From Lactobacillus sp. S2-2 (lineage in GTDB: Bacteria; Bacillota; Bacilli; Lactobacillales; Lactobacillaceae): a DNA stretch of 64,000 nucleotides. The DNA lies in the NCBI RefSeq assembly GCF_021698855.1, contig NZ_WWFA01000011.1, forward strand, positions 1-64,000, written 5' to 3'. This document shows positions 12,298 through 34,073 of this stretch, in pieces; positions within the stretch are counted from its first letter, which is position 1, and each line of letters starts with the position of its first letter. A program made the translations under genes and the position numbers. The notes beneath the pieces were generated by a model. The model saw nothing but the letters and a program-made list of their open reading frames with translations, made no database searches and was not told the DNA's origin.

Positions 12298-12383
12298 GCG
12301 GCCATGGCGGAATTGGCAGACGCGCAAGATTAAGGATCTTGTCGGGAATTATCCCGGTGGAAGTTCGAATCTTCTTGGCCGCA
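12298..12383 (+). tRNA. tRNA-Leu (AAG anticodon)
   Basis: Class II tRNA of 86 nt: acceptor GCGGCCA/TGGCCGC, anticodon stem CAAGA/TCTTG with loop TTAAGGA giving AAG (CUU codons), long variable arm GTCGGGAATTATCCCGGTG, T-loop TTCGAAT and discriminator A. No encoded CCA. It has its own promoter and terminator. Confidence 0.97.
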
Positions 12384-30514: not shown

Positions 30515-33055
30515 ATGTATAATATTTTTAATAAAACTAAAAATTTTATCAATAAAAACATGAATTTATTAAAAACAATTTTTATTATATTTGTATTATT
30601 AATTGTGTCCTCTGAATCATATAAAGTAATTAAAGAAATAAATGGTGGAGAGGTAAAACATGCAATTAATAATTTAGATGTTTTACATATTTTAATCTTA
30701 ACTATTTTAGGAATTGTTGCTGTCTTACCAATGTTAATTTATGATTTTACAATCGTAAAATTTTTACCTGGTAATTTTAAAAAGAAATATATTTTTAAAA
30801 GTGGTTGGATAACTAACACAATTACAAATATTGCTGGATTTGGTGGTTTTTTAGGAGCAAGTTTAAGAGCTAATTTTTATAAGGATAATGCTTCAAAAAA
30901 GGAAATTCTTTATGCAATATCTAAAATTGCTCTGTTTTTACTTTCAGGATTATCTACATATTGTTTAGTTTCCTTTATTTTTATGTTTCTTTCAAAGAGT
31001 GGAAATGAATTTTCACATTATTGGTATTTATTATTAGGTGGTTCAATATATTTTCCAATTATATTTTTAATAACAAGAATTAGTGATTCTGATTATTTTA
31101 AAGACTTAACTATTAAACGTGAATTTACTTTAATAGGAGGATCCTTACTTGAATGGGGATCTTGTGCTTCTTTATTTTTAATAATTGGATATTTTCTTAA
31201 TTTATCACCAAATTTTTTGATAGTGGTTCCAATCTTTTTTGCTGCTAATGTTTTAGGAGTTGTTTCAATGCTTCCTGGAGGCTTGGGATCATTTGATTTA
31301 ATGATGTTAACTGCATTAAATAGTATGGGTATTTCGCCTTCTTTAAGTGCTAGTTGGATATTATTATATCGAGTGTTTTATTATATGATTCCATTTTTAA
31401 TTGGAACAATTTTATATTTAATAGACTTAGTTGGTCATATAAACAATTATTTTGATGGATTACCAAAACTTATTTTGAAGAAAGTATCATTGATTATTAC
31501 AATTATTTTTATGTATTTTTCTGCAATTATGATGATTTTAATTTCAATTTTTCCTAAATTAGTTTTAGTAAATCCCTTTTATTTGTCATTAGCACCTTAT
31601 ACTGTCTACTTTTTAGGTCAACTAACCAATATTGTGGTTGCATTTCTTTTAATTGGTCTTGCTAGAGGTGTTGCGTCTGGAGTAAAGAAGGCTTTTTGGC
31701 CAACAGTAATAGTTTTAATATTTGCGATGATAAATACACTTTGGAAACAGGATTTTCCATTTAAAATAACAATATTTTTAGGAGCTATATTATTATTTCT
31801 ATTTCTTTCTAAGGATACTTTCTATCGAACAAAGTTAACATATTCTTGGGGTAATTTTTTAATTGATTTAGGAATATTTTTTATATCACTCGTGAGTTAT
31901 GGACTTGTTGGATTATATTCATTAAATAATCATATCGTTAGTTCTAAAGTGAGAATGATTTTATTATCTGAACATGTCTGGTTGATTGGATTAGTCGGAT
32001 TTTTACTTGCTATTTTAGTTTTATTTTTAGTTTATATTTATTTATCATCTCAAAAAGTAAATTGGTTTAATTTACCATTCGATGAATTAAGAATAAATTC
32101 ATTATTAAATAAATTTGGTGGTAATGAAATAAGTCATTTAATTTATTTAAGAGATAAAAAAATTTACTATTATCAAGTTGATACCGAAGATCAATTAATG
32201 TTTATGTATGTAAAAAAGGCTAATAAATTAATTATCATGGGAGATCCAATTGGAAATAAAAATTATCTTAATGATGCAATTGATCAATTTATGGAAGATG
32301 CTGATTTAATTAATTTAAATTTAGTTTTTTATGAAATTAGTGAAGATTTAACAATGCTATTACATGAAAAAGGATTTGATTTCATTAAAGCTGGTGAAGA
32401 AGGATATGTTCAATTAAATGACTTCTCTTTATCAGGTAAGAAAAGACGTGGTGAAAGAGCTTTAATGAATAAATTTGAAAGAGAAGGATATACATTTGAT
32501 GTTTTAAATCCACCTTTTGAATTAAATTTAATTAATGATTTAAAAGAAATTTCTAATCAATGGTTATCAGGAAAAAAAGAAAAAGGTTTCTCATTAGGTT
32601 TTTTTGATCAATATTATCTAGAAAGGTCATCAATTGCGGTAATTAAAGATGAAAATCAAAGAATTGTGGCTTTTGCTAATATTATGCCAAGTAATAATCA
32701 AATTATGACATAAATTGATTTAATGAGATCAGGAATTGATGCTCCATCTGGAATTATGGATTTAATGTTTATTAATTTATTTAAATATAATCAAAAGAAT
32801 AATTATCAATTATTTAATCTTGGAATGGCACCATTTTCAAATGTTGGTAAATCAAAGTTTAGTTTTGTGAATGAAAAGGTAGTAAATCTTATTTATAAAT
32901 ATGGTGATGCTTTTTATAATTTTAAGGGACTACGATTATACAAAGAAAAATATGTTAATCATTGGTCTTCTAAATATTTTGTTTATCGAAAAAATAATTC
33001 ATTGATTTTTACCATGTTACAATTATTATCTGTTGTTAATAAAAAGAGAAAATAA
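30515..33055 (+). pseudogene. mprF: Phosphatidylglycerol lysyltransferase MprF, interrupted by one in-frame stop
   Basis: MprF adds lysine from Lys-tRNA to phosphatidylglycerol and flips the product outward, giving resistance to cationic peptides. ATG 30515 follows TAGGAG. The reading frame is full length (about 846 codons): 12-14 membrane helices to about residue 530, then the cytoplasmic transferase domain. A TAA at 32711-32713 interrupts it; the next 114 codons stay in the same frame and keep conserved MprF sequence (IDLMRSG, FNLGMAPFSNVG, LRLYKEKYVNHW, KYFVYRKNNSL). A Ser codon TCA changed to TAA would explain it. The truncated 732-aa product keeps the flippase but lacks part of the catalytic fold. 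Sequencing error is possible. Confidence 0.85.
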
Positions 33056-33102
33056 AAAAAGGAATTAATTATCTGGAAAATACAGATAATTAATTCCTTT
33101 TT
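33053..33102. terminator. Strong bidirectional terminator between mprF and nrdF
   Basis: AAAGGAATTAATTATCTG with CAGATAATTAATTCCTTT, an 18-pair perfect stem with A and T runs on the two sides. Confidence 0.92.
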
Positions 33103-33104
33103 AA

Positions 33105-34073
33105 TTAAAACCATTTTTTATAATCATTATCATCCATTGCCTCAACATTACCAAGTCGATATCCATTACCAACTTGAGAGAAGAAATCATGGTTAGCAGT
33201 AGAAGTTGAAATACCATTCATAACAATTGGGTTAACATCTTCAGCAGTATCTGGGAACATTGGTTCTTGTCCAAGATTCATTAATGCTTTATTAGCATTG
33301 TATCTAATAAAAGTTAATACTTCTTCAGTTAGACCAACTTTATCATATAAAAGATGAGTATATTTTTCTTCATTTGAATATAAATCGTACATGAAGTTAT
33401 ACATCCAATCTTTCAAATCATTTTGTTTATTTTCACTTAATTGATTAAATTCAATTTGGAATTTGTAACCAATGTAAGTACCATGAACGGATTCGTCTCG
33501 AATAATTAGTTTAATAATTTCTGCAACATTAGCTAGCTTGTTATTTCCTAAATACCAAAGAGGGGTAAAAAATCCTGAATAAAATAAGAAGGTTTCTAAA
33601 AATACACTAGAAATTTTCTTTTTTAATGGGTTTGAATCATCATGATATAATTCATAAATTCTTTTGGTTTTATTTTGAAGATATTCTTCGCTATCACTCC
33701 AATCAAAGATATCATCGATTTCTTCAGGAGTATTTAAAGTAGAAAAAATTGATGAATAACTTTTAGCGTGGACTGATTCCATAAATTGAATATTATTAAG
33801 AACTGCAATTTCGTGAGGAGTGATTGCATCTTTTTTTAGAGCAGCCATTCCATCTTGTGATTGAAGAGTATCCAGTAAAGTTAGACCACCAAAAACATGA
33901 CCAACTAACCATTGACGATCTTCATCTAACTCACGCCAGTCTTTTAAATCATTTGAAAGAGGAATTCTTGTATCAAGCCAAAATTGTTCAGTTAATTTTT
34001 CCCATGTTGCCTTATCAATTTCATCATTGATTTCATTCCAATTAATTGCTTCATAATTATTTTGTTGTTCCAT
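33105..34073 (-). CDS. nrdF: Class Ib ribonucleotide reductase, radical-bearing beta subunit
   Basis: Houses the dimetal centre and tyrosyl radical needed by NrdE. The 322-aa protein keeps the ligands and radical site: Asp in LLDTLQS, Glu and His in FMESVHAKSYSS with the radical Tyr three residues on, Glu in FLETFLFYSGF and Glu/His in IRDESVHGTYIG. The C-terminal KKWF docks into NrdE. AGGAAG precedes ATG 34073. It follows nrdE after 18 bases in an nrdEF operon. The flavodoxin NrdI is not encoded in the window. Confidence 0.97.
   Translation of the reverse strand: MEQQNNYEAINWNEINDEIDKATWEKLTEQFWLDTRIPLSNDLKDWRELDEDRQWLVGHVFGGLTLLDTLQSQDGMAALKKDAITPHEIAVLNNIQFMESVHAKSYSSIFSTLNTPEEIDDIFDWSDSEEYLQNKTKRIYELYHDDSNPLKKKISSVFLETFLFYSGFFTPLWYLGNNKLANVAEIIKLIIRDESVHGTYIGYKFQIEFNQLSENKQNDLKDWMYNFMYDLYSNEEKYTHLLYDKVGLTEEVLTFIRYNANKALMNLGQEPMFPDTAEDVNPIVMNGISTSTANHDFFSQVGNGYRLGNVEAMDDNDYKKWF

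Follow-up and report, generated by a model that had tools for sequence, protein, structure and literature searches.

mprF puts positive charge on membrane lipids, and in the window (the whole stretch of 64,000 nucleotides analysed here) its reading frame contains one internal TAA codon. The question raised by this locus is whether mprF has been inactivated in the sequenced organism, whether the TAA is an error in the sequence, or whether a working MprF is still made in spite of it. From the ATG at 30515, 732 codons lead up to the TAA at 32711-32713; past it, the same frame stays open for another 113 codons until its normal terminal TAA at 33053-33055, and translation of 30515-33058 revealed no further stop or frameshift. 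The original prediction had counted 114 codons after the stop; they are indeed in the same frame, and 113 of them are sense codons, the 114th being the terminal stop. The start codon is assigned by inference, with AGGTAGGAG as a plausible ribosome-binding site upstream of the ATG. A promoter scan returned 22 sites, compared with a mean of 23.3 in shuffled sequences.

Profile comparison showed that both sides of the TAA belong to one MprF gene. The 732-residue part matched positions 2-729 of NF033480 (the NCBIfam model of bifunctional MprF) with 746.5 bits, and the part after the stop matched positions 732-841 of the 841 in the model with 166.8 bits (E = 7.3e-49). Because of this family match, the in-frame extension of 113 residues is not a product of chance. 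The LPG_synthase_C domain (PF09924) was likewise split in register, with positions 3-202 before the stop and 208-298 of 298 after it, and the F. fructivorans protein aligned across the stop in one frame at 60% identity with one internal TAA. The proposals that a full-length mprF frame is split at this codon, that strong MprF sequence lies beyond it, and that the 732-residue product keeps the membrane (flippase) region but only part of the synthase domain are all borne out by these matches. The cut-off of NF033480 is 600 bits, which the first 732 residues exceed by themselves, and an annotated 'MprF' match need not imply an active synthase. The features of the locus are listed in Table 1.

Table 1. 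Features of the interrupted mprF locus, in window coordinates
Feature	Position	Strand	Basis
mprF reading frame, interrupted, whole gene	30515..33055	+	In-register NF033480 match before and after the TAA; F. fructivorans protein 60% identical
Open part, 732-aa product: membrane (flippase) region and about two thirds of the synthase domain	30515..32713	+	Translation, profile matches
Premature TAA, at a Ser column in relatives	32711..32713	+	9/9 congeners, 27/27 rows of the wider alignment
113 in-frame codons and normal stop: C-terminal end of the synthase domain	32714..33055	+	DLMR, NLGMAP and GLRxYKxKY motifs retained
First in-frame ATG past the premature stop	32723..32725	+	No Shine-Dalgarno-like sequence ahead
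Long inverted repeat, terminator-like on the minus strand	33056..33102	-	Between mprF and the converging gene
Converging gene 3' of mprF	33105-34073		Resembles nrdF by eye

The mprF gene had no internal stop in any of nine other Fructilactobacillus genomes, and the column of the TAA is Ser in all nine, in agreement with the proposal that a Ser codon had been changed. All 27 rows of a wider alignment had this residue as well. The alignment comprised the nine congeners and 18 proteins hand-picked from 61 named loci, with 43 omitted; two of the rows (L046 and L047) do not differ from each other, at least over the post-stop columns. At the level of the family, 233 of 397 sampled genomes (the window's own included), or 223 of the 377 more complete ones, had an mprF match. 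Since the remaining 164 genomes had none, mprF seems to be dispensable in the family and its loss tolerable. Among the 150 matches listed (of the 233), two had an internal stop, namely the TAA in the window and a TAG in another genome (G331). A compensating second copy of the synthase was rejected, as a search of the host genome with LPG_synthase_C at E <= 0.001 found neither a second MprF nor a stand-alone synthase.

What the stop would do to the enzyme can be judged from S. aureus MprF, in which, according to a published study, exchange of K547, K621, E624, D731, R734 or K806 abolished lysyl-PG production (PMC2774229). In the window, the DK and KAGE motifs (equivalents of K547, K621 and E624) precede the stop, and the DLMR and YKEK motifs (D731, R734 and K806) follow it. 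This assignment rests on motif and spacing rather than on an alignment with the S. aureus protein; the spacings from K621 to D731 (110 residues) and from D731 to K806 (75 residues) are identical in the two proteins, and that from K547 to K621 is 77 residues here and 74 in S. aureus. By these equivalences, the translated synthase domain lacks three of the six essential residues. Comparison with structure 4v36, the solved lysyl-PG synthase domain from Bacillus licheniformis, gave an alignment up to residue 333 of 335 with an intact relative as the query but only up to residue 215 with the pre-stop part from the window. As half of the six essential residues fall after the stop, the 732-residue product should be an inactive synthase. 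The original prediction had presumed lysyl-PG as the lipid made, but the product at stake may be another: two studies describe Ala-PG as the product in some relatives (PMC2774229) and a lysyl-glycolipid that is additionally made in some relatives (PMC11630815).

We propose, with a probability of about two in three, that this is the mprF of a Fructilactobacillus and that a nonsense mutation recently inactivated it, either in the isolate that was sequenced or in its lineage. Translation of MprF would end after residue 732, and the synthase domain would lack its final portion, which, as judged by motif and spacing, holds three of the six residues essential in S. aureus. The protein would then no longer aminoacylate membrane lipid, and the leftover flippase part would probably have no product to flip. 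The stop allele may be a polymorphism of the culture or of the strain. The single in-frame stop here stands against intact genes in all nine congeners, the pattern of a nonsense allele; the evidence comes from one genome sequence, in which a base error would look identical.

If the stop were old, the codons behind it would be expected to have decayed. The window's share of the tree length (fixed tree, 28 proteins) was 0.080 for the membrane part, 0.073 for the synthase domain before the stop and 0.081 for the part after it, and only one other row (L050, 0.105) had a post-stop branch longer than that of the window. Among the columns invariant in the nine congeners, the window was altered at 66 of 269 in the membrane part, 24 of 138 in the synthase domain before the stop and 14 of 79 after it (Fisher's exact test for the post-stop part, p = 1.0 against the pre-stop synthase and p = 0.45 against both pre-stop parts). 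At the protein identity of about 60% shared with the nearest relatives, synonymous sites would be expected to be saturated. A cruder identity ratio, in which the log distance of the window to the rest is divided by that of F. fructivorans to the rest, was 2.07 after the stop compared with 1.67 and 1.69 before it; this points towards a slight decay after the stop, although with about 100 columns the difference may be noise. Thus neither relaxed constraint in tree share and invariant columns nor added lesions in the translation were found past the stop, and an old pseudogene is not supported. With no clear loss of constraint, the stop either arose late on the branch, or is an error, or does no harm. 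The lack of decay does not discriminate against a pseudogene, because it is expected if the stop is recent, and it is equally predicted by an error, by readthrough or by reinitiation.

A base-calling or assembly error, with an intact mprF in the real genome, is possible but on balance unlikely. A single codon is affected in a draft of 14 contigs, constraint beyond the stop is similar to that elsewhere in the gene, and mprF is intact in all nine congeners compared, as would be seen if the TAA were an error. Against this, 161 open reading frames of at least 100 residues (antisense frames included), taken from 80 kb of each of two relatives, were searched against 104 kb of the contig. Of these, 139 were matched over 69.5 kb, and among the sense genes an internal stop was seen in mprF alone. 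All remaining stops fell before a start codon, at the end of a gene or in an antisense frame; the comparison used best hits only, so that small frameshifts could escape it. With no other broken gene among the matched stretches, the sequence does not appear to be generally poor. The genome is 99.71% complete with 0.59% contamination, which is still compatible with one isolated error. The original prediction had also offered an assembly error: poor assembly as a general cause is not supported, as the matched stretches of the 104 kb are otherwise unbroken, and what is left of that proposal is an isolated base error.

It is improbable that the stop is read through, or that translation restarts at the ATG 9 nt downstream, so that MprF is still produced, in full length or in two pieces. 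The family motifs retained after the stop with no clear loss of constraint, the in-frame ATG at 32723, and a report that S. aureus MprF is active with its flippase and synthase parts as separate proteins would all fit such a product, though that split lies between the two domains and not within the synthase (PMC2774229). Readthrough or recoding is unlikely on several grounds. TAA is the commonest stop codon among the window's open reading frames examined, ending 36 of 44 others picked by hand, and it therefore works as a stop here; none of the 51 tRNAs found in the genome has an anticodon that reads UAA; and folding of the RNA around the stop gives no sign of special structure, as 184 of 200 shuffled sequences fold at least as well (z = +1.31). 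None of the nine congeners has a stop at this site. As for a restart, no ribosome-binding site was seen at 32723, unlike the start of mprF itself, which is preceded by AGGTAGGAG. In a related possibility, to which we give very little weight, the interrupted mprF would still work, with the parts of 732 residues and of 113 residues (the C-terminal one) together active or regulated, so that the lineage makes mostly flippase and a little full enzyme.

The original prediction also named a flippase-only protein; in a selected form of this reading, the truncated MprF would be kept to move another lipid or substrate with its membrane part. In favour of this, the membrane part is uninterrupted and has not diverged more than the remainder. 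On the other hand, there is no older signature of a switch, in that the synthase sequence on either side of the stop evolves on the window branch much as the membrane part does, and a protein that retains about two thirds of the synthase domain would be an unlikely design for a flippase alone. In addition, the N-terminal part of S. aureus MprF did not confer peptide resistance by itself (PMC2774229). We found nothing that points to retention for flipping and regard this adaptation as hardly credible. A recent loss of the synthase, which had been proposed alongside it, remains the best fit, given the absence of clear acceleration after the stop, the single copy of the gene and the essential residues beyond the stop; overall, the original interpretation is partly supported.

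The host organism is an AT-rich Fructilactobacillus, with a genome of 1.35 Mb in 14 contigs; the window lies within contig 3. The GC content of the window is 28.5%, compared with 34-40% in four 20-kb stretches of F. fructivorans and F. lindneri, and with 36% given for the chromosome of F. vespulae strain Mu01 (PMC12101011), so that an assignment to F. vespulae is not supported. In the midpoint-rooted mprF tree, the window is sister to the other nine congeners and has the longest terminal branch, and the low GC content together with this branch (window positions 1-64000) indicates an AT-rich and fast-evolving lineage of Fructilactobacillus. Two tRNA genes are also of note, a tRNA-Leu with the anticodon AAG at window positions 12298-12383 and a tRNA-Thr with the anticodon AGT at positions 723-798 of locus L146; an A at the first anticodon position is uncommon in bacteria outside tRNA-Arg.

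A further observation in the genus concerns DltA (TIGR01734), which did not score above the curated cut-off in any of 10 Fructilactobacillus genomes; weaker matches were found in seven, and none in the window's genome or in two others (G003 and G004). The usual D-alanylation pathway may therefore be absent from the genus Fructilactobacillus. If the mprF stop is real, it would be a further example of mprF being expendable in the family, here in an AT-rich member with a small genome, and the strain might be left with neither of the usual means of masking envelope charge, MprF and DltA.

Taken together, the locus looks like an ordinary loss-of-function allele or a base error rather than a new mechanism or a new kind of system. 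A limited literature search of small coverage met no report of this mprF allele, which is a weak negative. As in the MprF family (NF033480; PF09924 and PF03706), nearly the whole profile is matched here, although in two consecutive pieces, and the motifs conserved within the genus are retained in the interrupted frame; the difference is the single internal TAA, which removes the final 113 residues. The mprF of G331 (locus L143, G331:C1:722800-727500) resembles that of the window in having one internal stop in an otherwise full-length gene, but its TAG occurs early in the gene, within the membrane part (near residue 192 of the aligned relative), whereas the stop in the window lies in the synthase domain. 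The closest published likeness is an mprF nonsense mutant of Listeria monocytogenes, in which a premature stop is described as most likely causing loss of function (PMC10457916). That stop, which is predicted to fall in the flippase domain, appeared under laboratory selection during an evolution experiment with hop beta acids (PMC10457916), whereas the Fructilactobacillus stop lies in the synthase domain and was found in a public genome of another genus.
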